The position numbers and the translations under genes are program-made. DNA of 64,000 nt, taken from the NCBI RefSeq assembly GCF_000190635.1, contig NC_015172.1, forward strand, positions 2,170,001 through 2,234,000. The letters run 5' to 3'. The DNA comes from Syntrophobotulus glycolicus DSM 8271. GTDB taxonomy: Bacteria; Bacillota; Desulfitobacteriia; Desulfitobacteriales; Syntrophobotulaceae. Below the pieces are notes generated by a model. The model made no database searches. It saw nothing but the letters and a program-made list of their open reading frames with translations, and was not told where the DNA came from. The stretch's first letter is position 1; every line of letters starts with the position of its first letter. Below, in pieces: positions 33,123 through 51,135 of this stretch.

Positions 33123-33177
33123 AGTAACTGAGAGATTTTTCCGGGATTCTGTTTCAAGGACAATTATGGAGGATAAT

Positions 33178-35427
33178 ATGCGCCAATACAAAGGTCTGCA
33201 GCTTGATCAATTTCAAATCGATGCTTTAACTGCCATCAACAATCATTTATCTGTCATCGTTTCGGCCCCGACCGGTACGGGGAAAACCCTTATTGCCGAT
33301 TATCTCGTGGAAAAATCCCTGAATGAAAATAAGAGAATTGTCTATACAGCCCCGATCAAAGCCTTGAGCAATCAGAAGTTCAAGGACTTTTCCAGCCAAT
33401 TTGGCCCTGAAAAGGTTGGTATCCTGACCGGGGATATTGTCATCAACCCCGAAGCAGGCCTATTGATTATGACCACAGAAATTTTCCGCAACCAGGTCAT
33501 CACGGAAGACCCTGAGCTCAATGATGTTTCCTACGTTATTTTTGATGAGATTCATTGGCTCAATGACGAGGACCGCGGCACAGTCTGGGAAGAATCCATC
33601 ATCCTGACACCTATGCACATCAAGATTCTCGGTTTGAGCGCCACAATCGCCAATGCCGCGGAATTGACCCAATGGATTGAATCAATCAGGGGGGAAGAAG
33701 TATTTCTGGTTGAAGAGCAAAAGCGAATTGTCCCTCTGGCCTATTATTATTACACGAAAGATACCGGATCAGTGACCTATGAACAATTAATTGAATTTTA
33801 TACCTCAAAAATCCGTTCCGGCAGCAATCAGGACGGAATTTCTCTTTTTCAGCCCACCTCTCACCTTGATTTAATCGAGAACATTAAAAATGGCTACCTG
33901 CCGGCTTTATATTTTGTTTTCAGCCGCAAACAGTGTGCGGAAAAAGCTCATGAACTGGCCAATACAAATCATTTCTTAACACCTCTTCAGAGTTCCAAAG
34001 TGAAGGATTTTTTCCTCGAGCAATTCGGACCCGAAGAAGGCTGGTCTTCCTCAACCAGAAGACTCTTCCGGGTCTGCCGGAAAGGAATTGGCTATCACCA
34101 TGCCGGCCTGCTTCCGGCCCAAAAATCAATTGTCGAGGATTTATTTTTGCAAAAATACATTTATGTTCTTTACTGTACCGAAACCTTCAGTGTCGGCATC
34201 AACTACCCTGTCAAAGCAGTCTGTTTTGATTCCCTGAGAAAATTTGACGGCAGGGATTTTCGGGAGCTTAAAAATCATGAATTTTTTCAAATGTCCGGGC
34301 GGGCGGGCAGGCGGGGTATCGATGAAAAAGGTTATTCCTTCGCTGTTGTCGACCTGAATTATCTGTATAAAAATACCCTGCCCAAATTTAATATCAATAA
34401 ACTGGAACCGCTGTCCAGCCAGTTTAAGCTTTCCTACAACACTGTTCTCAATCTGATGGCTACACTCAATCTGGAACAGATAGAGGTTTTTTTCAAAAAA
34501 AGCTTTGCTTCTTATTCTCATCATGTTATATCAGAACGTATTGACCGGCGTATCAGGGAATTGGATCAGGAACATGCGGCCATTCGTTCCCTTTCCTGCC
34601 ACAACTTAAGCTCTTACCGCTGCCCGGCCAATTATTATCCGAAGCTTAAGGAGTTGGAACGGCTGCGCAAATCATACAACAGGCTTGAGCCCAGAAGAAA
34701 GAACAAAATATACGGCAGGGAGATGCTGCGCAAAATTAAAAAATGGGAGAAAGTCCTCCACTCTTCCCCCAAAAAATGTTCTCTGAAAAAACAGGAAAAT
34801 TGCAAATCCCTGTCTTCCAGATGGCGGGAAATTAAAACGATGAAAAATGATCTTCAGGCTCAATTGTCCGTATTGGCCGATCACAATACTTTCTTAAATG
34901 AATTCTTATATAAAAAAAATCAGCTGGCCCAATTAAAATACATTGAGGGTGATCTTATTCTGCCCCGCGGCGAATTTGCCCGTCATATTTATGTCCAGGA
35001 ATTACTGGTCACAGAATTGATTTTTTCCGGGTATCCGGAAACTCTGGACGATGATGAACTCAATGCTTTGATCTCCTGTATTGATTATGAAAATAAAAAG
35101 AATGATTTCTTTATCAAAAATGACTCTTTAGATTTTTCCGCTGTTAAAGAAATGATAGAGTATCTCCAGTCCATTTGCGGTACGGAAGCGGTTCGTTTTG
35201 AATCTCGTGTCGCCGGAATCACCTATGCCTGGAGCAAAGGGGCTGAATTCAGCCAGATCCATCATTTGTGCAATTTAGATGAAGGAGACATTATCGCTGT
35301 TTATCGCCGTACAATCGATCTCCTGCGGCAGATCAAAGAAGCTTCAACTGATCCGCTTTTCCAAAAAAGAATTTCCGGCTGTATGAAAAAACTGGATCGG
35401 GACGAGGCTTCCATCCTTGAGCTTTGA
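33178..35427 (+). CDS. Ski2/Mtr4-like DExH superfamily 2 helicase
   Basis: About 749 residues. Motifs in order: Q-like LDQFQIDAL, Walker A SAPTGTGKT, Ia YTAPIKALSNQK, motif II VIFDEIHWLND, III LSATIANAAEL, then in the second RecA domain FSVGINYPVKAV and motif VI QMSGRAGRRGIDEKG. The rest is helical, with a Lys/Arg-rich stretch near residues 490-560. Homologues are known from eukaryotic RNA exosome cofactors and as HelY-type proteins in bacteria. The start at 33178 has GGAGG five bases upstream; another ATG four codons earlier is possible. The substrate is unknown, RNA is most likely. Confidence 0.85.
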   Translation: MRQYKGLQLDQFQIDALTAINNHLSVIVSAPTGTGKTLIADYLVEKSLNENKRIVYTAPIKALSNQKFKDFSSQFGPEKVGILTGDIVINPEAGLLIMTTEIFRNQVITEDPELNDVSYVIFDEIHWLNDEDRGTVWEESIILTPMHIKILGLSATIANAAELTQWIESIRGEEVFLVEEQKRIVPLAYYYYTKDTGSVTYEQLIEFYTSKIRSGSNQDGISLFQPTSHLDLIENIKNGYLPALYFVFSRKQCAEKAHELANTNHFLTPLQSSKVKDFFLEQFGPEEGWSSSTRRLFRVCRKGIGYHHAGLLPAQKSIVEDLFLQKYIYVLYCTETFSVGINYPVKAVCFDSLRKFDGRDFRELKNHEFFQMSGRAGRRGIDEKGYSFAVVDLNYLYKNTLPKFNINKLEPLSSQFKLSYNTVLNLMATLNLEQIEVFFKKSFASYSHHVISERIDRRIRELDQEHAAIRSLSCHNLSSYRCPANYYPKLKELERLRKSYNRLEPRRKNKIYGREMLRKIKKWEKVLHSSPKKCSLKKQENCKSLSSRWREIKTMKNDLQAQLSVLADHNTFLNEFLYKKNQLAQLKYIEGDLILPRGEFARHIYVQELLVTELIFSGYPETLDDDELNALISCIDYENKKNDFFIKNDSLDFSAVKEMIEYLQSICGTEAVRFESRVAGITYAWSKGAEFSQIHHLCNLDEGDIIAVYRRTIDLLRQIKEASTDPLFQKRISGCMKKLDRDEASILEL

Positions 35428-35716: not shown

Positions 35717-36673
35717 CTATTCAACATTTAAAGTAAATCTATAAGAACTATCAAGCGGCCTATATTCAGTTTTATCTGCATCAAAGGGATCTTTAATTAC
35801 CCAACCCATTATTTCATATTCTCCTTCTTGCTGCGGTGCATTTATGTTCACGATACCTCGAACCAACTCACCATTTTCAACTTCACATAAGATGTAATCC
35901 TGATTATTAATATTAGACTGCTCCAATCCAATAGTAATAATAACGGCTACTTCCTCACAATCTTCATAACCGCCGACTTGATACTGTAAAGAAAATTTTT
36001 CACCTGCTGGTAGCTTTAATTCTCTACCTGGCATCGTTCTCTTATATTCTCTGGTGTCAGTATTCAACAGTAGTCCAGCCGCTTGATACCCTGTGACGGT
36101 TTCTGTCTTTTCGATATTATACTCTGATTGTGCCATAGCATTATCTCTTCCAAAAGATAGCATGTGATCAATTGCGATAGAATAATTATTTGACATTTCA
36201 AAGTTAACTTCATTTGTTAATACATCAGTTCCTGCAGTGAGTATTGCCAACAATGAATGATTATAATTTGTGTCAATAGGCTCAGCTAATTGAAACGTAA
36301 AATCACGTCCGAAATTTTCAGGAGCATCTATGAAAAACGTATTATACTCTGTACCGTCAATCTTTATTGGTACTTGCCTACAATCTATGAAAACCTGTAC
36401 TGAAAACTGTCGCTGCTGACCTCCGTTTTCAACTCTAAAAAGCATATCATCATTATATTCTTGTAATTCTATGATGCCTTTTCGTTCTAGATTTTTTGAC
36501 TTAGCAGTATATAAGTCAAAGTAGTATCCTCGAGTATTCTCGCTCACTAAATGTTGTACTCCATCATTTTCTTCGCGTATTCTAGAATTATTGCATCCCG
36601 TTAAGGCAATTATTTGCATTAAAACAATTATAAGAATACAGAATTGATAAATTCTTTTTTTTTGTGTGTTCAT
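35717..36673 (-). CDS. Putative lipoprotein of unknown function
   Basis: A 318-residue protein starting at the ATG at 36673 (GGAGG about ten bases upstream). The N-terminus is basic then hydrophobic and ends in a lipobox, IIALTGC, so it should be exported and lipid-anchored on the outer face of the membrane. The mature part shows no motif I recognise; it looks beta-rich, with conserved-looking stretches such as FSVQVFIDCRQVPIKIDGTEY. It is AT-rich in codon use, unlike the helicase gene before it. It is transcribed divergently from the BlaI/BlaR1-type pair and could be its target. Function unknown. Confidence 0.75.
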   Translation of the reverse strand: MNTQKKRIYQFCILIIVLMQIIALTGCNNSRIREENDGVQHLVSENTRGYYFDLYTAKSKNLERKGIIELQEYNDDMLFRVENGGQQRQFSVQVFIDCRQVPIKIDGTEYNTFFIDAPENFGRDFTFQLAEPIDTNYNHSLLAILTAGTDVLTNEVNFEMSNNYSIAIDHMLSFGRDNAMAQSEYNIEKTETVTGYQAAGLLLNTDTREYKRTMPGRELKLPAGEKFSLQYQVGGYEDCEEVAVIITIGLEQSNINNQDYILCEVENGELVRGIVNINAPQQEGEYEIMGWVIKDPFDADKTEYRPLDSSYRFTLNVE

Positions 36674-36733
36674 AAATATTGCCCCTCCCAAACGACTTTT
36701 GATTTCACATTATTGTAAAAATGTAAAATCAAT

Positions 36734-36774
36734 GCGTATAACAAAGTCGAAGTGTATTCAACTTTGCTATACGC
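36734..36774. repeat. Inverted repeat upstream of the lipoprotein gene
   Basis: GCGTATAACAAAGT (36734-36747) and ACTTTGCTATACGC (36761-36774) pair in 13 of 14 positions with a 13-base loop. It lies 60-100 bases upstream of the lipoprotein start, in leader or promoter position. No T-run follows. Confidence 0.6.
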
Positions 36775-36863
36775 TGTATTGTAAGCAGTTCCTGCTTTCC
36801 TTTTTATAAACATAACACGCCCTTTCTCGTACAATTATTTTACGGTATTTTCACCACTAACTA

Positions 36864-36878
36864 TGTAATATAATTACA
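36864..36878. promoter_or_regulatory. Palindrome TGTAATATAATTACA, candidate BlaI-type operator
   Basis: A perfect 15-base inverted repeat (TGTAAT-ATA-ATTACA) midway in the divergent region between the lipoprotein and blaI-like genes. BlaI/MecI operators are short TACA/TGTA dyads, so this is a natural candidate, though the arrangement of the two half-sites is not the textbook one. Confidence 0.45.
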
Positions 36879-36954
36879 ACGTCATTAAATCATTCAATTA
36901 TATATTTGTCAAGTAATAATAAAACATTCAATTAAAATGATTGCAGGTCTATTA

Positions 36955-36983
36955 TTGATATGTTTAATTTTTTTGTATAAAAT
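36955..36983 (+). promoter_or_regulatory. Promoter for the BlaI/BlaR1-type operon
   Basis: TTGATA at 36955-36960, 17-base spacer, TAAAAT at 36978-36983, about 30 bases before the ATG of the regulator. Confidence 0.55.
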
Positions 36984-37013
36984 AAACTCATCTAGATAAA
37001 GGGAGAATTATAA

Positions 37014-37430
37014 ATGTCAAAGCAAAAAAACAACTCAAGATTAACCGAAAGAGAAATGGATATACTGAATATTTTGTGGTCATCGGACAAACCTCTGGTC
37101 GCTTCCGATATTGCTAAGATGGGTAATTCATTAAGTATCAATACCGTACAGGCCGTATTAAGAAATTTGTTGAGTAAAAAGCTGGTTGGGATTGCAGATA
37201 TTGTTTACAGTGGCACAGTTCTTTCACGTAGTTATCAAGCAACTGTAAGTTCAAGGGAATACACTATGCGGCAACTTATCAACCAGTTTCAAAATTTAAA
37301 TGAAAGTGTTTCAATGCCTAGCATTATATCAACTCTGTTGGAGTACGAAAAAAACGAAGAATCTGTTATTGAGGAATTAGAGAAAATGCTGAAAGAACGC
37401 AAAGAGAAAATTAAAAGAAAAGGACAGTGA
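37014..37430 (+). CDS. BlaI/MecI/CopY family repressor
   Basis: A 138-residue winged-helix regulator. The N-terminal DNA-binding domain reads LTEREMDILNILWSSDKPLV, NTVQAVLRNLLSKKLV and YQATVSSREYTM, which are typical BlaI positions; the C-terminal ~50 residues form the dimerisation part, ending in a Lys-rich tail. In the family, a partner BlaR1 protease leads to cleavage of the repressor upon signal. Its stop overlaps the start of the BlaR1-like gene (GTGA), so the two are translationally coupled. Confidence 0.9.
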   Translation: MSKQKNNSRLTEREMDILNILWSSDKPLVASDIAKMGNSLSINTVQAVLRNLLSKKLVGIADIVYSGTVLSRSYQATVSSREYTMRQLINQFQNLNESVSMPSIISTLLEYEKNEESVIEELEKMLKERKEKIKRKGQ

Positions 37431-38629
37431 TCCATTTGGAGTTTTCTTTCACCTCTTTTTTTACCATGATATTATTCAGTAACGTTATTATTATCATTAT
37501 ATGGTTATTCTTAAAAAAGAATAAGAATGTTGATCCTATTGAAATTAACTTTGCTCTTTTTTTAATAGCAATCGTAATTATACGCCTATTCGTTCCAATT
37601 GAACTTGATATAGCAAATACTGTGGATTGTACATTTTTGCTACCTGATATGGTTTCCTTCATGAATTTTCGTTTGGTACCCATTAGCAACAGTTATTTGT
37701 ATGTCTATCATATTTTATATACTGTTATGATGACAGGTACTTTAATAGGATTTATAAGAAGCCTTATTATTTTTCAGAAATTTAAAAGCTCAATATGTCA
37801 ATTACCAGCAGAGATGCATAGCAGAATACAGCCTATTCTACAGAAAGTTTTAAAAAAGTATTCTAAGCCTGGCCACTTTACTATTATGCTATCATCTACA
37901 ATTACAACTCCACTTATATTTGGCCTGAAAAAGCCAACCATTGTTTTACCTGACTTAGACTTTTCTGATGATGAATTGTTTCATGTTTTTAGTCATGAAG
38001 TTAGACACTATTACAATCATGACCTTTTAGTTAAATTCGTTATGGAATCATTGTGTTTACTGTATTGGTGGAATCCGCTCGTTTTATTACTTAAAAAACA
38101 GGTATCTAGGGCACTTGAATTACATACGGATATCATGACTACTAAATCAATGAGTGAATTAGAACGCATCAACTATATGGAATGTCTTCTAAAAACAGCT
38201 AACTACCGAAGAAAAATAAGACAAGGCAATTTAATGTCAACACTCAATAGTGATGGTTGTACTCTAAAACAGCGTTATCATATTGTCATGGATTGTAGAA
38301 ATTCGAAACCTACAAACAAAAATATGAAAAGTATATTTTTAGCAGGAACGCTTGTATTAACATTAACAATCTTTTCATTCTCCTTTGTGTTTAAACCATA
38401 CTATTTTTTACCAGAAAACGAAGCGACAGTTTTAGTTGAATTGACAGCGGAAAACGCCTACTTGATAAAAAATGATGAAAATAACTTCGATTTACATTTA
38501 AATGGTGAATATTTTTCCACCATAAATGAGATTAAGGAATCCTATTCAAATTTACCAGTTTATGAAAATTTTAGCGAGGTGCAAAAAAATGAAGGTAATT
38601 ATGAAAACCCTATTCGCATTTCTCAATAA
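37427..38629 (+). CDS. BlaR1/MecR1-type M56 membrane metallopeptidase
   Basis: A 400-residue membrane protein starting with GTG in a GTGA overlap. Three N-terminal hydrophobic segments are followed by a cytoplasmic zinc protease domain. The zinc motif HEVRH is at about residue 190, with LLYWWNPLVLLL and the third-ligand region SRALELHTDIM after it. A fourth membrane helix (about 300-325) leads to a short outer tail of ~75 residues. True BlaR1 carries a penicillin-binding sensor there; it is absent, so the signal is not read by a beta-lactam domain and is unknown. Confidence 0.88.
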   Translation: MIHLEFSFTSFFTMILFSNVIIIIIWLFLKKNKNVDPIEINFALFLIAIVIIRLFVPIELDIANTVDCTFLLPDMVSFMNFRLVPISNSYLYVYHILYTVMMTGTLIGFIRSLIIFQKFKSSICQLPAEMHSRIQPILQKVLKKYSKPGHFTIMLSSTITTPLIFGLKKPTIVLPDLDFSDDELFHVFSHEVRHYYNHDLLVKFVMESLCLLYWWNPLVLLLKKQVSRALELHTDIMTTKSMSELERINYMECLLKTANYRRKIRQGNLMSTLNSDGCTLKQRYHIVMDCRNSKPTNKNMKSIFLAGTLVLTLTIFSFSFVFKPYYFLPENEATVLVELTAENAYLIKNDENNFDLHLNGEYFSTINEIKESYSNLPVYENFSEVQKNEGNYENPIRISQ

Positions 38630-38730: not shown

Positions 38731-38759
38731 AAAAGACGCCTCACCTGATGTGAGACGCC
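38731..38759 (-). terminator. Intrinsic terminator of hydrogenase operon 1
   Basis: On the minus strand GGCGTCTCAC-ATCAG-GTGAGGCGTC forms a 10-pair stem (two G-T pairs) followed by TTTTC. On the plus strand the stem has mismatches, so it is oriented for the hydrogenase transcript. Confidence 0.7.
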
Positions 38760-38841
38760 TTGGGTAGACTGTGTTTTGTTACCGCCGCTTGCTTTTTTCT
38801 CAGCTTTTCGCAGATTCATTCTGCTTTTCTAATTATTTTTC

Positions 38842-40023
38842 TTATTTGTAGAAAGCGTATCTGCCGTCTTCAGTCATAATTCCTACCGTAGGTTCATCAC
38901 CTCTGTGACTGAAAACACTGAAGTTTTCTGACAGGAACAGGAACGCCAGGCAGCCGATAGATATCAGTCCCAAGCATACGATGACTTCGATCCAGGACGG
39001 GAAATACGCGCTGCCATATTGTCCGAAGTATTCGCTTACTCCGGTAAATACCATGTTGAAGCGGTTTAGAACTACACCTCCGACCGTTAGCAGGCCGAAG
39101 ATCGTTTGTCCTTTGCTGGTTCCCGCTGATTTACTGAAGGCAATGAAGATCGGGATCAATACGCCGGCTCCTAATTCAATTAAGAACATGATGCTGGCAT
39201 AATCAAACGCGAATACTCTGCCCAGATTTCCCGCTATCGCCAAATCAACGATCTTCATCCCCAGGTACAGAACCATCAGTGCACCCGCGATCCGGATCAA
39301 TCCTTTTAAAACGGATGGATCGACATCATAGTTGAACGCTTTTCCACAAAGTCTGATCACTACCGCCATCATAGCCGGGCCTACAAACAAGGAGGTCACC
39401 AGGAAAAACGGAGCGATTAACTGTGATGACCAGAGGGGATCAAGTTTGCCAAGCATCAGGTAATACAGTCCGCCCAGCGAAGATTGGTGCAAAGTCGGCA
39501 ACGTGACTCCAATAACTAATAATACCGGCAAAGCCGCTTTAAAATATTTATGATAACCTTTAAAAACCTTCTCTGTCGCCACTTCACAGAATTCTAATAC
39601 CTGCACTATCGCGTAGATCGTGATACAAACTAAGACTTCGAACAGGACACTCTCATGACCCCAGGATACGAAGGGTGTCCAGAAGTTGAACCATTGTCCG
39701 ATATCAACAAACAGCCCAAGGATACCGGTAATATATGCGATCAAAGATATGAGCATCCCTATTCTGGCTACCGGGAAAAATTGGTCTCTGCGCAGTATGA
39801 ATACCATGAATGCCATGGTAAATCCGCTGCCGCCTAAGGCAATTCCTGTGAAAACAACAAATTTCCAGAGCCCCCATGTCCATTGGTCGTTTTGGTTGGT
39901 TGCAACACCCAGACCCCAGATCAAACGCACCAGAATCATGAGTATCCCTAATACAGCCAAGGCCGCAAATACAAGCCTCATTGGGGTTATTGTAAAACTC
40001 CATCTCTTACGAGCCGTTTCCAT
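38842..40023 (-). CDS. Hydrogenase membrane subunit, NrfD/HybB-like (copy 1)
   Basis: A 393-residue integral membrane protein with about ten hydrophobic helices (for example LVFAALAVLGILMILVRLI and FTGIALGGSGFTMAFMVFI). NrfD/PsrC/HybB proteins pass electrons between an external Fe-S subunit and membrane quinone. Here it should link the [FeFe]-hydrogenase to menaquinone. The protein is identical to the copy at 42780-43961. It follows the Fe-S subunit gene by 26 bases, with GGAGGG before its ATG. Confidence 0.88.
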   Translation of the reverse strand: METARKRWSFTITPMRLVFAALAVLGILMILVRLIWGLGVATNQNDQWTWGLWKFVVFTGIALGGSGFTMAFMVFILRRDQFFPVARIGMLISLIAYITGILGLFVDIGQWFNFWTPFVSWGHESVLFEVLVCITIYAIVQVLEFCEVATEKVFKGYHKYFKAALPVLLVIGVTLPTLHQSSLGGLYYLMLGKLDPLWSSQLIAPFFLVTSLFVGPAMMAVVIRLCGKAFNYDVDPSVLKGLIRIAGALMVLYLGMKIVDLAIAGNLGRVFAFDYASIMFLIELGAGVLIPIFIAFSKSAGTSKGQTIFGLLTVGGVVLNRFNMVFTGVSEYFGQYGSAYFPSWIEVIVCLGLISIGCLAFLFLSENFSVFSHRGDEPTVGIMTEDGRYAFYK

Positions 40024-40049
40024 TCTTTTCCCTCCTTACGTTCTTATCA

Positions 40050-40856
40050 TTATCCCAGGTGATCTTTACCTTTATTATTGTATACGTACAGTCCGGCCAG
40101 AATCGCTGCCCAGCTCAAACCGACAATCGGGGTCATCTTCATGTAACCCGCGGTATAAGACGGCATCGGTTTGGTTGTCACATTCGTATTGAATCTCATC
40201 TGTTCAAACGGCACATCAGAGATATACAGCCACTGGGTTCCCCCTGCTTCTTTTTCTCCAAACACTCTGTCCACATAACCGTTTTCTTTAATTCTCTTTT
40301 TCGCTTCGGCCAAAAGTTCTTCTCTTTCGCCAAAGATTATCGCTCCCGTGGGACATACTGATGCACAAGCTGGAGCTTCGTTATTGGCCACCCTGGTCGG
40401 ACACATCTGACACTTTTTTACACCAGGTATTGCTTTTTTCCATTCATACGTCAGAACGTCGAACGGACAGGCCATCATACAATAGCGGCAGCCGACACAG
40501 AGGCTCTGGTCATAAATAACCGGGCCCTGCGGAAGCTTCTGAAACGCTTTGGAGAAACATGCTGAGGCACAGACCGGTTCCTCACAGTGCATACATTGTG
40601 TTTTTACAAACCTCCAGGCCGGAGATCCGTCCTTTTCTAAGTCATAATGGTTGATTGCCGTCCACTCTTCCGGCCAAAGGCCTTTATTGGGTTCCTTCGC
40701 TCTATCTATCGCTGTCTTGGTCTTTTCCTCTGCCGTCCATTCCAGCTCGTTCCACAACTTACAGGCTACTGAACAGCTCTCACATCCTATGCACTTCGGT
40801 ATATCTACCAATACTCCATAACTCTTGCTGTTTTCTGTTTTTACTTCACTGCTCAT
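40050..40856 (-). CDS. Hydrogenase Fe-S electron-transfer subunit, HybA/FdnH-like (copy 1)
   Basis: A 268-residue ferredoxin-type protein with four [4Fe-4S] motifs: CIGCESCSVAC, CMHCEEPVCASAC, CVGCRYCMMACPF and CQMCP...CASVCP. A C-terminal hydrophobic helix (about residues 240-258, VGLSWAAILAGLYVY) can anchor it. It lacks its own Tat signal, so it may be carried across the membrane together with the Tat-signal-bearing catalytic subunit, as is known for other hydrogenases. The protein is identical to the one at 43988-44794. Confidence 0.9.
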   Translation of the reverse strand: MSSEVKTENSKSYGVLVDIPKCIGCESCSVACKLWNELEWTAEEKTKTAIDRAKEPNKGLWPEEWTAINHYDLEKDGSPAWRFVKTQCMHCEEPVCASACFSKAFQKLPQGPVIYDQSLCVGCRYCMMACPFDVLTYEWKKAIPGVKKCQMCPTRVANNEAPACASVCPTGAIIFGEREELLAEAKKRIKENGYVDRVFGEKEAGGTQWLYISDVPFEQMRFNTNVTTKPMPSYTAGYMKMTPIVGLSWAAILAGLYVYNNKGKDHLG

Positions 40857-40878
40857 TCCTCTTCACCTCCCGGGCATT

Positions 40879-42444
40879 TTAATACTCTGATGGTTTTTTC
40901 GCAGTTAAAAGATGATCCTTCGGTACATAATGAGTATGCAGAAGCAGTTCCGCCTCTTCACTTAACGGCTGTCCTAAAAATTCAGTATAAATCTTTTTAA
41001 TTTCCGGATTTTCATGACTTAAACGAATTCTCATGCTCTTATCGATTTTATAGACAGCTTCGATTCTTTTCTCTCTGACCCTATCCTGAGGAGGCACCGA
41101 GGATCTTGGCTGTCCACCGCCGCTGATACAACCGCCGGGACATGCCATAACCTCAACCAAACGCCAGGGCGCCTGACCGGCATTGATCATATCACAAATT
41201 TTTCTGGCATTGTTTAACCCTTGAGCAACGGCTATTTTCTCCTCACCAATACCGGGGATTTCCAAAGTCGCCTCCTTGATGCCCTGCAAGCCATGGACGG
41301 GCTGCAAATCAAGCACTACAGCCGGAGGCTGCTCACCGGTAGCCAGGAAGTAAGCTGTTCTGACAGCCGCTTCGATAACTCCGCCGCTATTGGCAAAAAT
41401 ATAACCGGCACCGGAAGCTTCACCGACCAGATTGTCAAAATCGCTGTCTTGAAGCTTCGCCAGATCGATCTTCTTCATTTTAAGCATCTCTGAAAATTCT
41501 CTGGTGGTCAGGACCACATCAATATCCCGCATACCGGGTTTGTTGTGATATTTTGCGGCGCTGTTCAATTCTTCACGAGTACATTCATACTTTTTAGCGG
41601 CACATGGCATAACCGCCACTGAGACGATTTTACTGGGATCAATACCCTTCTTTTCGGCGAAATAGGTTTTAATCATGGCCCCCATCATCGCCTGAGGGGA
41701 TTTAGATGTCGAATATTTCGGAATCATTTCCGGATAGTAATATTCCATAAATTTTACCCATGCCGGGCAGCAGGTCGTAAACATTGTATAAGGGGCAGTG
41801 GGATCCTTCAATCTATGGACATGCTCCGAAGCTTCTTCCATAATCGTCAGGTCGGCAGCCCAGTTCGTATCCGCAACATAGTCAAACCCGATTTCTCTCA
41901 AAGCCGCGACCATTTTCCCTTCGACATTGGTTCCGATCGGGAATCCGTAATCATCACCAATCGCAACTCTGATCGCCGGCGCAGTCTGGGCAATCACAAT
42001 TTTATCCGGGTCGGCGAGGGCCTCCCAGACTTTTTGGGTATCATCGACTTCAGTGATGGCCGCAGTCGGGCACCAGTGGGTACATTGTCCGCAATTCACA
42101 CATATTGTTTCATTTTTAATCGGCAGCTTGTAATATCCGTATACCGTCTGAACATTTTGACATACCTCGATACATTGCCCGCAAAGGATACATTTCTGGT
42201 CATCCCGGGTAATTGACGGATTTTTAGGATCAATTGATATTCTTCCTTTAACCTGAGTGGGAAAATCACCCCGATTATCGTACTGAGTCGGCAGCCAGCC
42301 ATCTCCTCCTGCCGCCTTTTCAGGCGTAAGCGGTTTACCGCAGCCGGCAAGTCCTAAAACAGCTCCTGTCACACTCAATCCTCCGGCAAATTTCAAAAAG
42401 GAACGCCTGGATAATGTAATTCCTTTTTTAACTTTTTCTGCCAT
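40879..42444 (-). CDS. [FeFe]-hydrogenase catalytic subunit 1, Tat-exported
   Basis: A 521-residue hydrogenase. The N-terminus has a Tat motif SRRSFLKFAGG followed by a hydrophobic stretch ending LGLAGC, a lipobox-like site. Two [4Fe-4S] motifs follow (CILCGQCIEVCQ; CVNCGQCTHWCP). H-cluster motifs are L1 TTCCPAWVKF, L2 MPCAAKKYE and L3 VMACPGGCISGGGQP; L1 has Thr where TSCCP is usual. The C-terminus holds the small-subunit-like domain (RLSHENPEIKKIYTEFL). The start at 42444 has AAGGAGG. It heads the operon with the Fe-S and membrane subunits. Confidence 0.93.
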   Translation of the reverse strand: MAEKVKKGITLSRRSFLKFAGGLSVTGAVLGLAGCGKPLTPEKAAGGDGWLPTQYDNRGDFPTQVKGRISIDPKNPSITRDDQKCILCGQCIEVCQNVQTVYGYYKLPIKNETICVNCGQCTHWCPTAAITEVDDTQKVWEALADPDKIVIAQTAPAIRVAIGDDYGFPIGTNVEGKMVAALREIGFDYVADTNWAADLTIMEEASEHVHRLKDPTAPYTMFTTCCPAWVKFMEYYYPEMIPKYSTSKSPQAMMGAMIKTYFAEKKGIDPSKIVSVAVMPCAAKKYECTREELNSAAKYHNKPGMRDIDVVLTTREFSEMLKMKKIDLAKLQDSDFDNLVGEASGAGYIFANSGGVIEAAVRTAYFLATGEQPPAVVLDLQPVHGLQGIKEATLEIPGIGEEKIAVAQGLNNARKICDMINAGQAPWRLVEVMACPGGCISGGGQPRSSVPPQDRVREKRIEAVYKIDKSMRIRLSHENPEIKKIYTEFLGQPLSEEAELLLHTHYVPKDHLLTAKKPSEY

Positions 42445-42690
42445 ATCTTTACCTCCTTGCTTTAAGAATTTTTAAAATTTTATTATTTTGTACTTATTAT
42501 AATTTATTTTTATTTTGTTTACCAGATGAATTTATCGTTAATTTATAATTTCTGCTGCCAAAAACAGCAACACATGGAATCCAGCCTTTATTCTCTTCTT
42601 TGTTTCCTTTCTTTACGGTCTATTTTAAGACAAAAAATCTTAAAAACCCGTAACAATTGTTACTTATTCAAAATATTCTCTTCGGGAGCA
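42445..42690. promoter_or_regulatory. Control region of hydrogenase operon 1
   Basis: AT-rich and gene-free. It holds a 23-base inverted repeat, TTTTAAGA-N7-TCTTAAAA (42623-42645), and five bases on, a perfect 14-base palindrome GTAACAATTGTTAC (42650-42663). A TATAAT reading toward the catalytic gene lies in the AT-rich part nearer the gene, with a poor -35. The palindromes are candidate operators for an unknown regulator. Confidence 0.5.
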
Positions 42691-42734
42691 ATAAAAAAAA
42701 GCAACCACCCTAATCCATGAATAGAGCAGCTGCC
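42691..42734 (-). terminator. Intrinsic terminator of hydrogenase operon 2
   Basis: On the minus strand GGCAGCTGCTCTA pairs with TAGGGTGGTTGCT (with several G-T pairs) and is followed by a run of eight T. It separates the two hydrogenase operons. Confidence 0.75.
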
Positions 42735-42779
42735 TTTTCTCAGCTTTTCGCAGATTCATTCTGCTTCTAATTATTTTTC

Positions 42780-43961
42780 TTATTTGTAGAAAGCATATCT
42801 GCCGTCTTCAGTCATAATTCCTACCGTAGGCTCATCACCTCTGTGACTGAAAACACTGAAGTTTTCTGACAGGAACAGGAACGCCAGGCAGCCGATAGAT
42901 ATCAGTCCCAAGCATACGATGACTTCGATCCAGGACGGGAAATACGCGCTGCCATATTGTCCGAAGTATTCGCTTACTCCGGTAAATACCATGTTGAAGC
43001 GGTTTAGAACTACACCTCCGACCGTTAGCAGGCCGAAGATCGTTTGTCCTTTGCTGGTTCCCGCTGATTTACTGAAGGCAATGAAGATCGGGATCAATAC
43101 GCCGGCTCCTAATTCAATTAAGAACATGATGCTGGCATAATCAAACGCGAATACTCTGCCCAGATTTCCCGCTATCGCCAAATCAACGATCTTCATCCCC
43201 AGGTACAGAACCATCAGTGCACCCGCGATCCGGATCAATCCTTTTAAAACGGATGGATCGACATCATAGTTGAACGCTTTTCCACAAAGTCTGATCACTA
43301 CCGCCATCATAGCCGGGCCTACAAACAAGGAGGTCACCAGGAAAAACGGAGCGATTAACTGTGATGACCAGAGGGGATCAAGTTTGCCAAGCATCAGGTA
43401 ATACAGTCCGCCCAGCGAAGATTGGTGCAAAGTCGGCAACGTGACTCCAATAACTAATAATACCGGCAAAGCCGCTTTAAAATATTTATGATAACCTTTA
43501 AAAACCTTCTCTGTCGCCACTTCACAGAATTCTAATACCTGCACTATCGCGTAGATCGTGATACAAACTAAGACTTCGAACAGGACACTCTCATGACCCC
43601 AGGATACGAAGGGTGTCCAGAAGTTGAACCATTGTCCGATATCAACAAACAGCCCAAGGATACCGGTAATATATGCGATCAAAGATATGAGCATCCCTAT
43701 TCTGGCTACCGGGAAAAATTGGTCTCTGCGCAGTATGAATACCATGAATGCCATGGTAAATCCGCTGCCGCCTAAGGCAATTCCTGTGAAAACAACAAAT
43801 TTCCAGAGCCCCCATGTCCATTGGTCGTTTTGGTTGGTTGCAACACCCAGACCCCAGATCAAACGCACCAGAATCATGAGTATCCCTAATACAGCCAAGG
43901 CCGCAAATACAAGCCTCATTGGGGTTATTGTAAAACTCCATCTCTTACGAGCCGTTTCCAT
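42780..43961 (-). CDS. Hydrogenase membrane subunit, NrfD/HybB-like (copy 2)
   Basis: Protein identical to the 393-residue product of 38842-40023; the gene differs by two synonymous bases near its end. It is the third gene of hydrogenase operon 2 and should connect that enzyme to the quinone pool. The stop is followed by a 13-pair terminator that is unlike the one after copy 1. Confidence 0.88.
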   Translation of the reverse strand: METARKRWSFTITPMRLVFAALAVLGILMILVRLIWGLGVATNQNDQWTWGLWKFVVFTGIALGGSGFTMAFMVFILRRDQFFPVARIGMLISLIAYITGILGLFVDIGQWFNFWTPFVSWGHESVLFEVLVCITIYAIVQVLEFCEVATEKVFKGYHKYFKAALPVLLVIGVTLPTLHQSSLGGLYYLMLGKLDPLWSSQLIAPFFLVTSLFVGPAMMAVVIRLCGKAFNYDVDPSVLKGLIRIAGALMVLYLGMKIVDLAIAGNLGRVFAFDYASIMFLIELGAGVLIPIFIAFSKSAGTSKGQTIFGLLTVGGVVLNRFNMVFTGVSEYFGQYGSAYFPSWIEVIVCLGLISIGCLAFLFLSENFSVFSHRGDEPTVGIMTEDGRYAFYK

Positions 43962-43987
43962 TCTTTTCCCTCCTTACGTTCTTATCA

Positions 43988-44794
43988 TTATCCCAGGTGA
44001 TCTTTACCTTTATTATTGTATACGTACAGTCCGGCCAGAATCGCTGCCCAGCTCAAACCGACAATCGGGGTCATCTTCATGTAACCCGCGGTATAAGACG
44101 GCATCGGTTTGGTTGTCACATTCGTATTGAATCTCATCTGTTCAAACGGCACATCAGAGATATACAGCCACTGGGTTCCCCCTGCTTCTTTTTCTCCAAA
44201 CACTCTGTCCACATAACCGTTTTCTTTAATTCTCTTTTTCGCTTCGGCCAAAAGTTCTTCTCTTTCGCCAAAGATTATCGCTCCCGTGGGACATACTGAT
44301 GCACAAGCTGGAGCTTCGTTATTGGCCACCCTGGTCGGACACATCTGACACTTTTTTACACCAGGTATTGCTTTTTTCCATTCATACGTCAGAACGTCGA
44401 ACGGACAGGCCATCATACAATAGCGGCAGCCGACACAGAGGCTCTGGTCATAAATAACCGGGCCCTGCGGAAGCTTCTGAAACGCTTTGGAGAAACATGC
44501 TGAGGCACAGACCGGTTCCTCACAGTGCATACATTGTGTTTTTACAAACCTCCAGGCCGGAGATCCGTCCTTTTCTAAGTCATAATGGTTGATTGCCGTC
44601 CACTCTTCCGGCCAAAGGCCTTTATTGGGTTCCTTCGCTCTATCTATCGCTGTCTTGGTCTTTTCCTCTGCCGTCCATTCCAGCTCGTTCCACAACTTAC
44701 AGGCTACTGAACAGCTCTCACATCCTATGCACTTCGGTATATCTACCAATACTCCATAACTCTTGCTGTTTTCTGTTTTTACTTCACTGCTCAT
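43988..44794 (-). CDS. Hydrogenase Fe-S electron-transfer subunit, HybA/FdnH-like (copy 2)
   Basis: Identical to the 268-residue product of 40050-40856, with the same four [4Fe-4S] motifs and C-terminal helix. It pairs here with a different catalytic subunit (44814-46391). That one unchanged protein serves two divergent hydrogenases implies that the docking surfaces of both catalytic subunits are conserved, or that the copies are held identical by gene conversion. Confidence 0.9.
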   Translation of the reverse strand: MSSEVKTENSKSYGVLVDIPKCIGCESCSVACKLWNELEWTAEEKTKTAIDRAKEPNKGLWPEEWTAINHYDLEKDGSPAWRFVKTQCMHCEEPVCASACFSKAFQKLPQGPVIYDQSLCVGCRYCMMACPFDVLTYEWKKAIPGVKKCQMCPTRVANNEAPACASVCPTGAIIFGEREELLAEAKKRIKENGYVDRVFGEKEAGGTQWLYISDVPFEQMRFNTNVTTKPMPSYTAGYMKMTPIVGLSWAAILAGLYVYNNKGKDHLG

Positions 44795-44813
44795 TCCTCT
44801 TCACCTCCTGAAC

Positions 44814-46391
44814 TTAGGATAATTTACTTCCTGATTTTTGGGGAGTAAACGTATTTGCTCTGGATTCGTATTCTGTATGCAGTATTTCTTCTGCCAAATG
44901 GCTCATTGGTGCATGCAGGTAATCTTTATAGATCTGAGTAATTTCTGTATTTTCATGACTGTTACGCACTTTAGCGTTCTTATCCAGTGTATAGAGAGAA
45001 TTGGAACGCTGGGTACGGATCGTATCACTCGGGGGAGCAGCAGCTCTTGGCTGCCCGCCGCCATATTGGCAGCCGCCCGGACATGCCATGACTTCAATAA
45101 AGGCCCAGGAAGCATTCCCTGCCTTAACCTGATCCATAACTTTACGCGCATTAGCCAAACCTGAGATAACGGCAACCTTCACATCACCGAGACCGGGAAT
45201 ATTGACAGAAGCTTCCTTTACACCAGTCAAGCCTCTAACCGGGGTCAAATTCCACAAAGCCGCAGGCGGAGCCTGTTTCGTGACAAGATAGTACACGGAG
45301 CGGATCGCTGCTTCCATAACTCCGCCGGTTGCACCGAAGATTACACCGGCACCCGTTCCTTCACCCATGAGTTTGTCATACTTTTCATCTTGAAGGGAAG
45401 CAAAATCTATGCCTTTTTTCTTGATCATTTTGGCCAGCTCTTTGGTCGTCAGGACAACATCTACATCCGCCGTAGCTTTGCTATCCTTAAACTCTTTGTC
45501 TGCCGAGGAAAATTCTGAACGCTGAGCCTCGAATTTTTTTGCGGTACAAGGCATGATGGAGACAGAAAAAATCTTTTCCGGATCAATCTTTTGTGTTTTG
45601 GCAAAATAAGTTTTGATCAACGCTCCCGCCATTTGCTGAGGTGATTTTGCTGATGATAAATTTGGAATAAGATCGGGATAAAAATATTCAACAAATTTCA
45701 CCCAACCCGGGCAGCATGATGTGAGCTGAGGAGTAGGTTTATTCAGTTCGCCCGTCACACGTTTTACTAATTCAGTGCCTTCTTCCATGATGGTCAGGTC
45801 GGCTGTGAAGGTTGTGTCAAAAATCGTATCAAATCCTAATTTTCTCAGAGCTGCAACTTGTTTTCCTTCAACATTTGTTCCAATCGGCATCCCAAATTCT
45901 TCACCCAGACCAACTCTTGTTGCGGGCGCGGTTTGAACAACCACAGTGATTTCCGGGTCTTCGATTGCCTGCAGCACCTTATCGATTTCGTCTTTTTCAG
46001 TGATCGCTCCTGATGGACACCAATGTGTACATTGTCCGCAGTTCACACAAACGATCTCATCTTTAATCGGAAGCTCATAGTTTCCATAGACTGTTTGAAC
46101 ATTTTGACATACTTCAATACATTGTCCACAAAGAATACATTTTTGATCATCTCTGACAATCGAAGGATTTGCGGGATCAATAGAAACCCGACCACGAACA
46201 TTGGTTGGCCAGTTTCCTGGTGCATTGTACTGTGACGGCATCCAACCATTTCCGCCGACGGCTTCTTCTGCCGTTAACGCTTTACCGCATCCAGCCAGAT
46301 TCAGCGAGACACCGACCAAACTTGCTCCCCCAACAAGCTTGAGGAAAGAACGTCTGGACAATTTTTTAGCTCGCCCTGCTTTACTTGCCAT
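44814..46391 (-). CDS. [FeFe]-hydrogenase catalytic subunit 2, Tat-exported
   Basis: A 525-residue paralogue of the enzyme at 40879-42444. It has Tat motif SRRSFLKLVGG and lipobox-like LNLAGC, two [4Fe-4S] motifs (CILCGQCIEVCQ; CVNCGQCTHWCP), and H-cluster motifs L1 TSCCPGWVKF (canonical), L2 MPCTAKKFE and L3 VMACPGGCQYGGGQP. The C-terminal small-subunit-like domain reads RNSHENTEITQIYKDYL. The middle of the protein differs clearly from subunit 1. AAGGAGG precedes the ATG. Upstream lies a gene-free region of about 1 kb with several palindromes. Confidence 0.94.
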   Translation of the reverse strand: MASKAGRAKKLSRRSFLKLVGGASLVGVSLNLAGCGKALTAEEAVGGNGWMPSQYNAPGNWPTNVRGRVSIDPANPSIVRDDQKCILCGQCIEVCQNVQTVYGNYELPIKDEIVCVNCGQCTHWCPSGAITEKDEIDKVLQAIEDPEITVVVQTAPATRVGLGEEFGMPIGTNVEGKQVAALRKLGFDTIFDTTFTADLTIMEEGTELVKRVTGELNKPTPQLTSCCPGWVKFVEYFYPDLIPNLSSAKSPQQMAGALIKTYFAKTQKIDPEKIFSVSIMPCTAKKFEAQRSEFSSADKEFKDSKATADVDVVLTTKELAKMIKKKGIDFASLQDEKYDKLMGEGTGAGVIFGATGGVMEAAIRSVYYLVTKQAPPAALWNLTPVRGLTGVKEASVNIPGLGDVKVAVISGLANARKVMDQVKAGNASWAFIEVMACPGGCQYGGGQPRAAAPPSDTIRTQRSNSLYTLDKNAKVRNSHENTEITQIYKDYLHAPMSHLAEEILHTEYESRANTFTPQKSGSKLS

Positions 46392-46539: not shown

Positions 46540-46575
46540 ATGGTCAGACCATCGACATGTTAAATGGTCTGACCA
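46540..46575. promoter_or_regulatory. Twin palindromic operator TGGTCNGACCA
   Basis: TGGTCAGACCA (46541-46551, extended by one pair to 13 bases) and TGGTCTGACCA (46565-46575) are perfect dyads with centres 24 bases apart. That is a little over two helical turns. They lie about 90-125 bases upstream of the proposed transcription start of hydrogenase operon 2. The TGGTC/GACCA form resembles sites of GntR-family (FadR/LldR-like) regulators, several of which sense small hydroxy- or keto-acids. Confidence 0.6.
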
Positions 46576-47452: not shown

Positions 47453-48718
47453 TTAGAACTTATTCTTGTATTGGTTAGCCATTCTTTTCTTGAGATTTTC
47501 AGCAATACTAGCTGGATCGATTGGATTTCTTGCGATTCCTGAATCAATAGCAGCTTGAGCAGTAGCCGCAGCGACTGCAGGAGCAACTTCAGGATTAAAT
47601 GAGCTGGGAATAATATAATTCGCATTCAGTTCTTCCGGTTTTACACAATCAGCAATTGCTTTAGCAGCAGCAACTTTCATGGCGTCATTGATATCGGTCG
47701 CTCTGACATCAATCGCACCGCGGAAAATACCGGGGAATGCCAATACATTATTTACCTGATTTTGAACATCTGAACGTCCAGTAGCAATAACAGCCGCACC
47801 AGCGTCAAGAGCTCTTTGGATCGGCCAAATTTCAGGGATTGGATTAGCTTGAGCAAATATAATTGGATTAGGAGCCATGCTCTTAATCATTTCTTCATCA
47901 AGCATTTCCGGAGCAGAAATACCGATAAATACATCTGCGCCTTTAATTGCTTCTTTAAGATCGCCTTTAACCAAGTTGACATTGGTTCTTTCAGCAATTT
48001 CGTCTTTATATTTGTTCATCCCTTCGGCACGACCTTTGTAGATAGCACCTTTCGTATCACACATGATTACATTTTTCAGACCCATATGCATGAGCAGCTT
48101 AATAATGGCGATACCGGCAGCTCCCGCACCATTAGCAACAACTTTGACATCTTCAATTTTCTTGCCGACAACTTTCAACGCATTGAAAAGTCCGGCAAGG
48201 GTTACAACTGCAGTTCCATGTTGGTCATCATGGAAGATCGCGCCTTTAAACTTACCGTTAGCTTTTAATGTATCTTCAATAACAAAGCACTCCGGAGCTT
48301 TGATATCTTCGAGATTCACACCGCCAAAGCTTGGAGCGATTAATTCAACAAGTTCAACAATTTTAGCTGTATCAGTGGTGTCAACACAGATCGGATAAGC
48401 ATCTACATCACCGAAAGCTTTGAAGAGAAGCGCTTTACCTTCCATAACAGGCATAGCGGCAGCTGCACCAAGATTACCGAGACCAAGAATAGCTGTACCG
48501 TTGGATACGACACACACCGCATTGGCATGGTTCGTATATACATCAAGGTTATCTAAATCAGCGGCAATTTCTTTTACCGGTTCAGCAACACCAGGTGAAT
48601 AAGCAAGAGTAAGATCATCTTTGTCTTTTGCAGGACAGGTAACTCTCACTTCGATTTTACCAGGACCAATTTTGTGAAATTCAAGTGCTTCGTCCCGCAG
48701 ATTTTTAATACGTGACAT
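47453..48718 (-). CDS. Malic enzyme (oxaloacetate-decarboxylating, NAD(P)-dependent)
   Basis: Oxidatively decarboxylates malate to pyruvate and CO2. The short bacterial form, 421 residues: N-terminal GKIEVRVTCPAKDKDDLTLA and AYSPGVAEPVKEIA, metal/substrate region FHDDQHGTAVVTLAG, Rossmann loop VVANGAGAAGIAIIKLL and FAQANPIPEIWP (FALANP in most relatives). It is the last gene of the operon that makes malate from malyl-CoA, so it would deliver pyruvate and reducing equivalents. Codons are more AT-ending than in the ilv genes, perhaps reflecting high expression. NAD versus NADP preference cannot be read reliably. Confidence 0.93.
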   Translation of the reverse strand: MSRIKNLRDEALEFHKIGPGKIEVRVTCPAKDKDDLTLAYSPGVAEPVKEIAADLDNLDVYTNHANAVCVVSNGTAILGLGNLGAAAAMPVMEGKALLFKAFGDVDAYPICVDTTDTAKIVELVELIAPSFGGVNLEDIKAPECFVIEDTLKANGKFKGAIFHDDQHGTAVVTLAGLFNALKVVGKKIEDVKVVANGAGAAGIAIIKLLMHMGLKNVIMCDTKGAIYKGRAEGMNKYKDEIAERTNVNLVKGDLKEAIKGADVFIGISAPEMLDEEMIKSMAPNPIIFAQANPIPEIWPIQRALDAGAAVIATGRSDVQNQVNNVLAFPGIFRGAIDVRATDINDAMKVAAAKAIADCVKPEELNANYIIPSSFNPEVAPAVAAATAQAAIDSGIARNPIDPASIAENLKKRMANQYKNKF

Positions 48719-48853
48719 GATTTATCTTCCTTTCATCTTTCATTTATTTTTTTAACAACAGTAAATATTATGAACGATATTCCTTGTTATTATGAGTATC
48801 ATCAAGATACAACATATACCTTGTTAAAAAACGAACATGCATAGAGAAGTTCC

Positions 48854-48916
48854 AGGCCCCCTCAACAGAGGTGGCCTTGGATACTCTTCAAGCCATCTCT
48901 GCGAGATGGCTTGAAG
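48854..48916. repeat. Two hairpins between aldolase and malic enzyme genes
   Basis: AGGCCCCCTC/GAGGTGGCCT (48854-48877, nine of ten pairs) and a perfect 14-pair stem CTTCAAGCCATCTC/GAGATGGCTTGAAG with a 3-base loop (48886-48916). No T-run follows either on the gene strand, so they look like RNA-processing or stabilising stems within the operon rather than terminators. Confidence 0.7.
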
Positions 48917-48924
48917 TATTGAAT

Positions 48925-49824
48925 TTAGCCCTTTTTCTGAGCTTCTTTTGCCTGAATTTCATTGTAGGCGGAAAGAATGTCGCGAGCATTATCATAAACA
49001 GGTGTATCAACCATTTTACCATTGAGGGTAACGGCTGCTTTACCTTTGGCGATTCCTTCTTCTTCAAACACTTTAACAACTGCTTTTGCCCACTCAACAT
49101 CAGCAGGATCGGGAGCATACAAACGGTTTGAAGGTTCAACCTGGCTAGGATGAATGATCATACGGCCTTCATAACCCATTTGTCTGCCGGTTGCAACATT
49201 CGCTTCAAACGCAGGAACATTCTGGAAAGAAACGAATGGAGCATCAACAGCGACGATACCAGCTGTGCGGCAAGCAACACCAACTTTGAAACGTCCATAT
49301 AACTGTTCCTCTGCTGCGTCTGTGATTTTAACTCTCATATCACGGCAGTAGTCAACAGCACCAAAGATCGCTGCAACATTGCGTTTGCTGGCTAAACAGC
49401 ATTCTTCGGCATTAGCAATACCTTTAGCTGTTTCAAGAAGCATGGAAATTTTCACTGTACCAACGGGAATGCCGCGGCGTTGTTCCAATTCTTCGAGTTT
49501 CCATTCCAAACGTTTAACGTCATCAGCAGAACCGGTTTTGGCAAGTGTAACACCGTCAAGACCAGGAATTACAACTGCTTCAAGGTCGTCATTTGTTAAA
49601 AGAGTTTCCCAGTTGTTGATACGAACCCATACTTGAGCACCGTTTACTGCTAAAGTTCCGCCTTTGATGGTATCTGCAATCATCACACGGGTTGCTTCTT
49701 TTTCAGCTGGTGGAATAGAATCTTCCAGATCCAGTGTGTAAACATCTGCAGGAATGCTTGGAGCTTTTTCGATAAATCTAGGATTGTTTCCAGGAACATA
49801 GAAAATAGATCTCAAAACAGCCAT
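48925..49824 (-). CDS. Malyl-CoA lyase-type aldolase (HpcH/HpaI, citrate lyase beta family)
   Basis: A 299-residue TIM-barrel lyase. Family motifs: LRSIFYVPGNNPRFIEKA, TLDLEDSIPPAEK, VWVRIN, ISMLLETAKGIANAEE and FGAVDYCRDMR. Relatives cleave or form malyl-CoA, citramalyl-CoA or citryl-ACP. No citrate lyase alpha or gamma gene is nearby, while malate-CoA ligase-like genes and malic enzyme are, so malyl-CoA formation from glyoxylate and acetyl-CoA is the best reading. The ATG at 49824 has AGGAGG upstream. Confidence 0.85.
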   Translation of the reverse strand: MAVLRSIFYVPGNNPRFIEKAPSIPADVYTLDLEDSIPPAEKEATRVMIADTIKGGTLAVNGAQVWVRINNWETLLTNDDLEAVVIPGLDGVTLAKTGSADDVKRLEWKLEELEQRRGIPVGTVKISMLLETAKGIANAEECCLASKRNVAAIFGAVDYCRDMRVKITDAAEEQLYGRFKVGVACRTAGIVAVDAPFVSFQNVPAFEANVATGRQMGYEGRMIIHPSQVEPSNRLYAPDPADVEWAKAVVKVFEEEGIAKGKAAVTLNGKMVDTPVYDNARDILSAYNEIQAKEAQKKG

Positions 49825-49918
49825 TCTAGAAAGCGCCTCCTTCGATTTGCCCTTTATATTTTAGCTTATCAGCCATAGAGCCTAACTTATTTTATCCATT
49901 CTTGTTTGCTAAAATAAT

Positions 49919-50812: not shown

Positions 50813-50844
50813 ACTAATTCCCTCATTTTAATTTTTCAATTATA

Positions 50845-51135
50845 TCAGGCTAAACCTCTTTTAGCGAGATATTCAGGAAGTCCGTCAACCTCAATATCGA
50901 TGCTGATTGCTTTATTGCCGTCAAACTGACAGGCAATTTCGCAAGCGAGACATTCTGTGCCGAGGCGAAGCACTTCACTTTCGGTCAAATGCGCAACAGA
51001 AGGTTTGCCGTCTTTAATCACAAGTATTCCTCTGGCAAACTTTTTGCATGCTTCCGCACAAGCTTTTGATTGACAAGCATCACATTTGCTTGCGTCAACA
51101 CTAACGGTAATACTTTTTTCTTTAATTTCAAGCAT
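50845..51135 (-). CDS. Small Fe-S protein between the two CoA-ligase genes
   Basis: A 96-residue protein with Cys clusters CDACQSKACAEAC (CxxCx4Cx3C, about residues 18-30) and ECLACEIACQF (CxxCx3C, about 63-70). The first could hold one [4Fe-4S] cluster; the second has three Cys and could hold a cluster with another ligand, or a [3Fe-4S]. It is not a standard 2[4Fe-4S] ferredoxin, where the fourth Cys is usually followed by Pro. Its place between ligase beta (8-base gap) and alpha (32-base gap) suggests co-production and perhaps a complex. I do not know a characterised homologue in this setting. Role unknown. Confidence 0.85.
   Translation of the reverse strand: MLEIKEKSITVSVDASKCDACQSKACAEACKKFARGILVIKDGKPSVAHLTESEVLRLGTECLACEIACQFDGNKAISIDIEVDGLPEYLAKRGLA

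Follow-up and report, generated by a model that had tools for sequence, protein, structure and literature searches.

The closest described relatives of the system treated here are hydrogenase-2 of Escherichia coli, with its membrane subunit HybB, the membrane proteins of the QrcCD type and of alternative complex III, and the hydA-FeS-nrfD operons (FeS, iron-sulfur protein) of Desulfosporosinus and other Desulfitobacteriales. Asp58 is listed among the quinone-site residues of HybB (PMC8076601); in the E. coli HybB D58A mutant, H2-driven menaquinone reduction is reported to be lost while H2 evolution from glycerol is kept (Lubek et al. 2019, cited in PMC13059093), and D70 of QrcD, the equivalent of HybB D58, is described as essential for menaquinone reduction (PMC13059093). 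Here, we present an analysis of two [FeFe] hydrogenase operons of Syntrophobotulus glycolicus DSM 8271, which lie in a stretch of 64,000 nucleotides (the window; genome positions 2,170,001 to 2,234,000 of the single finished 3,406,739-bp contig). The operons encode different catalytic subunits, HydA1 and HydA2, each followed by genes for the same FeS protein and the same NrfD-type membrane protein. The FeS-nrfD module is repeated almost without change, and its NrfD has evolved exceptionally fast and has Val at the position of HybB D58 and QrcD D70.

How syntrophs push electrons uphill from menaquinol to H2 is a long-standing question. S. glycolicus is reported to contain menaquinones but no cytochromes (PMC3156405), and H2 formation driven by the proton motive force (pmf) was measured in its membrane vesicles, where the oxidation of glycolate to glyoxylate was coupled to a membrane system with pmf-driven reversed electron transport to H2 (Friedrich and Schink 1993, cited in PMC3156405); the same system is reported to alternatively reduce glyoxylate with H2, conserving energy (Friedrich and Schink, cited in PMC3156405). 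A duplication alone would be of modest interest; more weight comes from its combination with natural variation at a residue whose mechanistic role has been tested by mutation, in a bacterium for which reverse electron transport was measured. With a single type of HybB-like base, present in two identical copies and changed at the site mutated in HybB and QrcD, the variant can be tested by single-residue swaps, and two catalytic subunits over one base provide a natural experiment on whether direction is set by the catalytic subunit or by the membrane base.

Two catalytic subunits above a repeated module

On the minus strand, the gene order from 5' to 3' is hydA2, FeS, nrfD, hydA1, FeS, nrfD, and the FeS-nrfD module is present twice as a direct repeat with an offset of 3,938. 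The genes and the repeat copies, the latter defined by sequence comparison, are as follows.

44814-46391, minus strand: hydA2, predicted group A [FeFe] hydrogenase exported by the twin-arginine translocation (Tat) system (TIGR02512; orthologue of the single Desulfosporosinus operon)
43988-44794, minus strand: FeS copy 2, DNA identical to copy 1
42780-43961, minus strand: nrfD copy 2 (HydA2 operon), protein identical to copy 1
40879-42444, minus strand: hydA1, predicted Tat-exported group A [FeFe] hydrogenase catalytic subunit of a divergent lineage (TIGR02512 above cut-off; trees)
40050-40856, minus strand: FeS copy 1 (268 residues, HmcB/HybA-like by profile search, no Tat signal, C-terminal hydrophobic stretch)
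38842-40023, minus strand: nrfD copy 1 (393 residues, predicted quinone-reactive membrane subunit of the HydA1 operon; Pfam PF03916, AlphaFold model matching ActC)
42736-44808, minus strand: repeat copy 2, 2,073 bp
38796-40870, minus strand: repeat copy 1, 2,075 bp, from the FeS ribosome-binding site to the 3' untranslated region (UTR)
38796-38893, minus strand: the only segment that differs between the repeat copies (two synonymous substitutions and a 2-bp indel)

An earlier note on this DNA had described about 2 kb repeated with two synonymous changes and a 2-base indel at one end, and direct comparison of the copies confirmed this. The identical run measures 1,977 bp (38894-40870 and 42832-44808); the two substitutions are at NrfD codons 377 (GAA/GAG) and 389 (TAC/TAT), both synonymous, and the only further difference is one 2-bp indel in the 3' UTR, so that all three lie inside 98 bp of the nrfD end. 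The FeS and NrfD proteins are identical across the copies, as is the FeS DNA, and synonymous divergence amounts to ~2 in 440 sites. The FeS-side boundary falls exactly on the GGAGG of the FeS ribosome-binding site, where the note had placed it, with unrelated sequence beyond, while the other boundary is in the 3' UTR before two unrelated terminator regions. The 2-kb identity is not due to chance. Unique sequence flanks each copy at either end, which makes a spurious duplication unlikely and supports the existence of two loci well. The differences are placed unevenly, as expected of gene conversion, with three of three in 98 of 2,075 bp. Based on simulation, p = 1.4e-4 for three differences all within 98 bp of either repeat end and p = 2.8e-3 for three in an equally short span anywhere in the repeat; counted over synonymous sites, the clustering of the two substitutions gives p = 6e-4. 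This clustering suggests at least one homogenizing event after the duplication.

The adjoining catalytic genes have diverged widely, as the note had also stated: HydA1 and HydA2 are 57% identical. Both pass the curated cut-off of TIGR02512 (405.95 bits) with scores of 468.5 for HydA1 and 501.0 for HydA2, both have a twin-arginine signal (RRSFLK) at the N terminus, and all three H-cluster motifs (TSCCP, MPCxxK, and ExMxCPGGC) were found in each. Among the 55 HydA proteins compared, only HydA1 has TTCCP in place of TSCCP and MPCA in the second motif. HydA1 differs at eight columns that otherwise hardly vary, one of them being the Ser of TSCCP, and HydA2 differs at one; therefore, it is plausible that HydA1 differs from HydA2 in its catalytic behavior.

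Rapid evolution of the duplicated NrfD

The NrfD protein scores 47.9 bits against Pfam PF03916 (cut-off 25.8) and 210.4 bits against the HybB model NF008133, under the curated cut-off of 450; by its sequence, it would work like HybB but is not HybB. Similarly, the FeS protein remains under the curated cut-offs of HmcB (NF045715; 279.5 bits, cut-off 420) and HybA (NF008134; 201.2 bits, cut-off 263). The NrfD fold predicted by AlphaFold (mean predicted local distance difference test score 75) has chains of alternative complex III as its top matches (E ~1e-9), the best Protein Data Bank match being the ActC-type chain 6btm_C with a template modeling (TM) score of 0.71; no solved structure related to NrfD by sequence was found. 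The S. glycolicus genome contains no further NrfD of this type besides the two identical copies. The predicted layout, in which an exported catalytic subunit carries the FeS protein as a passenger onto a haem-free quinone subunit, would suit an organism with menaquinones and without cytochromes.

The altered NrfD is the most unusual feature of the locus and was absent from the earlier note. In the NrfD tree, the S. glycolicus branch has a length of 0.6 changes per site, compared with 0.06-0.14 for its neighbors, and relative-rate tests gave p values from ~1e-6 to 1e-12 for NrfD, while neither FeS nor HydA2 is accelerated in the S. glycolicus lineage. Thus, of these three proteins, only NrfD evolved at an exceptional rate. 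At 19 of the 109 columns that are invariant in 32 other NrfD relatives, the S. glycolicus protein departs, whereas any other row does so at four or fewer; 11 of the 19 departures fall within residues 49-100, at the beginning of the first helix bundle (p = 7e-4). The most conspicuous segment is the following.

39826-39870 (copy 1) and 43764-43808 (copy 2), minus strand: altered NrfD segment, codons 52-66, with a one-residue deletion, K54, and V56 replacing the conserved Asp

In the alignment with E. coli HybB, V56 is at the position of D58, accompanied by the deletion and by K54, a new Lys two residues earlier, and V222 is at the position of E228; D58 and E228 are charged residues that are otherwise fully conserved. 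The carboxylate at the HybB D58/QrcD D70 position, occupied by Asp in HybB as well as in all 15 relatives aligned, is therefore missing, while the equivalents of HybB R89, E133, E148, E155, H184, K198, E291, and R329 are kept. Some NrfD-like subfamilies other than the HybB-like one carry Tyr at this position. A frameshift or sequencing error behind the odd segment was rejected, as the codons are in frame, the changes are spread over the protein, and they are identical in both copies. Because both module copies carry the changes, the remodeling preceded either the duplication or the last homogenization. By analogy to one E. coli mutant, our guess is that this NrfD may be biased toward H2 formation; any such bias must fit the reported H2-dependent reduction of glyoxylate.

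Genealogy, the sister-genus site, and neighboring genes

Among 60 relatives scanned, the FeS-nrfD module was found at a high score in 27, with one per genome (G013 adds one much weaker second match), and none of the 60 has two close copies, which we observed in S. glycolicus only. HydA2 is orthologous, with up to 77-78% identity, to the HydA of the one operon present in Desulfosporosinus and relatives, and together with its module it forms the ordinary operon of the order. HydA1 has a different history. It clusters with two HydA proteins of another genus in the same family, G018:C69 and G004:C87 (support 100/99; also in an earlier quick tree). A clade of HydA1 and HydA2 was rejected (approximately unbiased test, p = 0.00015), and with it the possibility that HydA1 is a recent copy of HydA2. 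Import of HydA1 from a distant family was likewise rejected, as matches outside the class reach at most 58% and HydA1 falls beside orphan HydA proteins of the same family in the tree. The FeS and NrfD trees, by contrast, group the S. glycolicus module among HydA2-type modules; taken together, the trees indicate an old split between the catalytic genes and a young pair of modules.

The two HydA1 relatives have a Tat signal, unrelated genes on either side, and no adjoining FeS or nrfD gene, while their genomes have one FeS-NrfD module each, which adjoins a HydA2-type gene. These orphan Tat-exported group A [FeFe] hydrogenases (L148 4460-6019 and L149 7907-9466) are conserved in position between two genomes of a single genus and may share the single module of their genome. 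Because the closest kin of HydA1 lack a module and HydA1 is no recent copy of HydA2, HydA1 probably gained a copy of the HydA2 base in this lineage, either recently or with later homogenization of the repeats.

The site without the second operon is visible in a sister genus. On its contig L085 (the same operon is present in G007), the genes for SucD, CitE, malic enzyme, and a LutB/LutC-like pair are followed by hydA2, FeS, nrfD, and then a convergent helicase gene, with neither HydA1 nor a second module. The helicase gene is the counterpart of the one at 33166-35427 in the window; in S. glycolicus, the interval separating it from nrfD contains hydA1, the second module, and a MecI/BlaR1-like block. 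The arrangement without the insertion is therefore seen in a relative, at genus distance only.

Two further differences between these sites stand apart from the hydrogenases. The MecI/BlaR1-like pair, with an open reading frame (ORF) resembling a lipoprotein gene, lies between the hydrogenases and the helicase gene (window 35717-38629) and is absent from the sister-genus site. There, malic enzyme and hydA2 are separated by a LutC/LutB-like pair (B fused, 715 residues; L085 4378-7105); no orthologue of this LutB-type fusion occurs in S. glycolicus (best match 39% over part), whose glycolate-oxidizing enzyme is therefore probably a different one. S. glycolicus also has a third group A hydrogenase, located beside NuoE/NuoF-like genes in the manner of the NADH-linked trimeric type (L155 6028-9511; genome 2,951,027-2,954,510).

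The remaining features of the locus are as follows.

47453-52418, minus strand: malic enzyme, CitE-type malyl-CoA lyase-like gene, and two malate-CoA/succinyl-CoA ligase-like genes (ORFs upstream of the hydrogenases)
46540-46575, unstranded: two TGGTCNGACCA palindromes 24 bp apart upstream of hydA2, putative GntR/FadR-type operator-like sites
42445-42779, minus strand: intergenic region ahead of hydA1, with the perfect palindrome GTAACAATTGTTAC at 42650-42663, single copy in the window
38733-38761, minus strand: terminator-like hairpin downstream of copy 1 only

The gene names at 47453-52418 follow the families to which the ORFs would belong. This gene set, whose order upstream of the hydrogenases is conserved in L085/L152, supports a location of the membrane [FeFe] hydrogenases next to malyl-CoA/glyoxylate-type genes. 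An operator common to both operons was rejected, as the TGGTCNGACCA pair is found upstream of hydA2 and no such palindrome upstream of hydA1; genome-wide, there is one other exact match to ATGGTCNGACCA, inside an ABC transporter gene. The unlike upstream regions suggest that hydA1 and hydA2 are separately controlled.

Proposed origin of the duplicated base and comparison with known systems

With moderate confidence, we favor a history in which hydA1, beside an ancestral hydA2 operon, gained a copy of the remodeled FeS-nrfD base that is young or was made equal again, with both HydA proteins docking on the same NrfD. A single operon, hydA2-FeS-nrfD, would have followed the glyoxylate/malyl-CoA genes in the ancestor. 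An anciently diverged hydA1, whose nearest kin stand alone, would have arrived downstream of the hydA2 operon in the lineage of Syntrophobotulus and received an FeS-nrfD copy, the breakpoint being at the FeS ribosome-binding site; this would have created the ~2-kb direct repeat that flanks hydA1. The copies would be young, or re-homogenized by recombination between the repeats, with the last ~98 bp escaping the latest event; 2-kb direct repeats make such recombination easy. The remodeling of NrfD, with loss of the HybB-D58/QrcD-D70 carboxylate, E228, and others, would predate this. The FeS protein, which has no signal of its own, would be carried through Tat by either HydA protein, and each HydA would dock on this one NrfD, so that H2/H+ on the outer side is connected to menaquinone; that either would use the same base follows from the identity of the predicted partners. 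With separate regions upstream of the two catalytic genes, both expression and catalytic properties could vary while the base stays the same. We consider unlikely the bolder proposal that loss of the D58/D70 carboxylate and of neighboring residues in the quinone bundle re-tuned NrfD toward menaquinol-oxidizing, pmf-driven H2 formation by reverse electron transport, that two HydA proteins differing in bias take turns on this base, serving syntrophic glycolate oxidation and H2-dependent glyoxylate respiration, and that recombination between the repeats keeps the bases equal.

Several points weigh against the favored history. HydA1 is on a long branch, and a history in which the orphan genus lost the module while Syntrophobotulus had it replaced needs just as many events on the tree. 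Three differences are few, the age of the copies and conversion are inseparable by comparison without a second Syntrophobotulus genome, and the identity of the repeat interior could partly be assembly consensus. Expression of HydA1 and its binding to the module are presumed, and, if this enzyme is used, H2-dependent glyoxylate reduction requires that the base also function in H2 uptake. None of the genomes compared shares the two-operon arrangement of S. glycolicus, and the literature searched yielded nothing on this hydrogenase type or on gene conversion in such operons.

Three genomes of the same phylum and another family (G197, G228, and G278) bear on the rival explanations. Each has two hydA-FeS-nrfD operons, with modules that are 69-74% alike within a genome and 76-90% between orthologues, the opposite of what conversion predicts. 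Conversion is thus not general, contradicting the note's suggestion that it keeps the modules equal insofar as this was meant as a general property, and general concerted evolution of such operons was rejected. We regard it as quite unlikely that HydA1 had its own old FeS-NrfD partner, which conversion from the HydA2 operon overwrote and still keeps equal. The differences do cluster at one repeat end, and nearly all HydA relatives outside the order adjoin a module, so that the HydA1 ancestor probably once had one; however, the nearest kin of HydA1 lack a module, and the three two-operon genomes show no homogenization. Moreover, homologous recombination needs near identity, so that a strongly diverged module would not be expected to be overwritten, and no diverged remnant is present at either repeat edge. 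Of the note's proposal that a recent module copy replaced an older partner, the copying or equalizing of a module under two old and different HydA proteins stands, while the nearest HydA1 kin, being without a module, speak against the replacement. A single recent duplication that was never followed by conversion, the clustering being due to chance or to the junction event itself, would fit the three changes in 2 kb, the low synonymous divergence, and the lack of a second close module in all 60 relatives, but it leaves the confinement of all differences to 98 bp of one end to a chance of ~1e-4 to 3e-3, depending on the test; we find it somewhat unlikely.

The assembly itself could have contributed. 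The genome is described as assembled from 454 and Illumina reads, with repeats finished by Dupfinisher and Illumina polishing (PMC3156405), and mid-repeat exact identity is therefore not proven by long reads. If the interior of two real loci had been collapsed to one consensus, differences would be kept near unique flank only, and those observed do all lie no more than 98 bp from a unique flank. However, 454 reads, which are a few hundred bases long, should reach more than 98 bp inward, and neither the adjoining stretch nor any part of the opposite repeat end shows a difference. The stated error rate is also below 1 in 100,000 (PMC3156405), and we hold such an effect to be very doubtful. It is also improbable that the second operon is redundant, with the repeat a transient product of tandem amplification and HydA1 without a special role: direct repeats of 2 kb flanking hydA1 should readily recombine and delete it, but HydA1 is old, intact, equipped with all H-cluster motifs, a Tat signal, and its own upstream region, and retained in the type strain. 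Because hydA1 and one module could be lost in a single 3,938-bp step, their persistence hints that hydA1 is maintained by selection.

Compared with known systems, G197, G228, and G278 are like S. glycolicus in having two operons per genome and unlike it in that their modules are old paralogues. QrcCD, which is menaquinone-linked, and ActC share the NrfD-like fold but have other partners, and the S. glycolicus NrfD lacks the carboxylate of QrcD D70. With HybA-HybB of E. coli hydrogenase-2, the locus shares an FeS and NrfD-type quinone base under an exported hydrogenase, and most conserved charged residues of HybB are kept; it differs in that the catalytic subunit is of the [FeFe] rather than the [NiFe] type, that D58 and E228 are replaced by Val, and that the base subunits score below the HybA and HybB cut-offs. 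With the hydA-FeS-nrfD operon of Desulfosporosinus and other Desulfitobacteriales, it has in common the gene order, Tat signal, H-cluster motifs, HmcB/HybA-like FeS protein, and NrfD, with HydA2 up to 77-78% identical; here, S. glycolicus stands apart by having two catalytic genes with identical bases and an NrfD without the otherwise invariant Asp. Altogether, the locus is real and unusual, and it is a variant of the known hydA-FeS-nrfD type.

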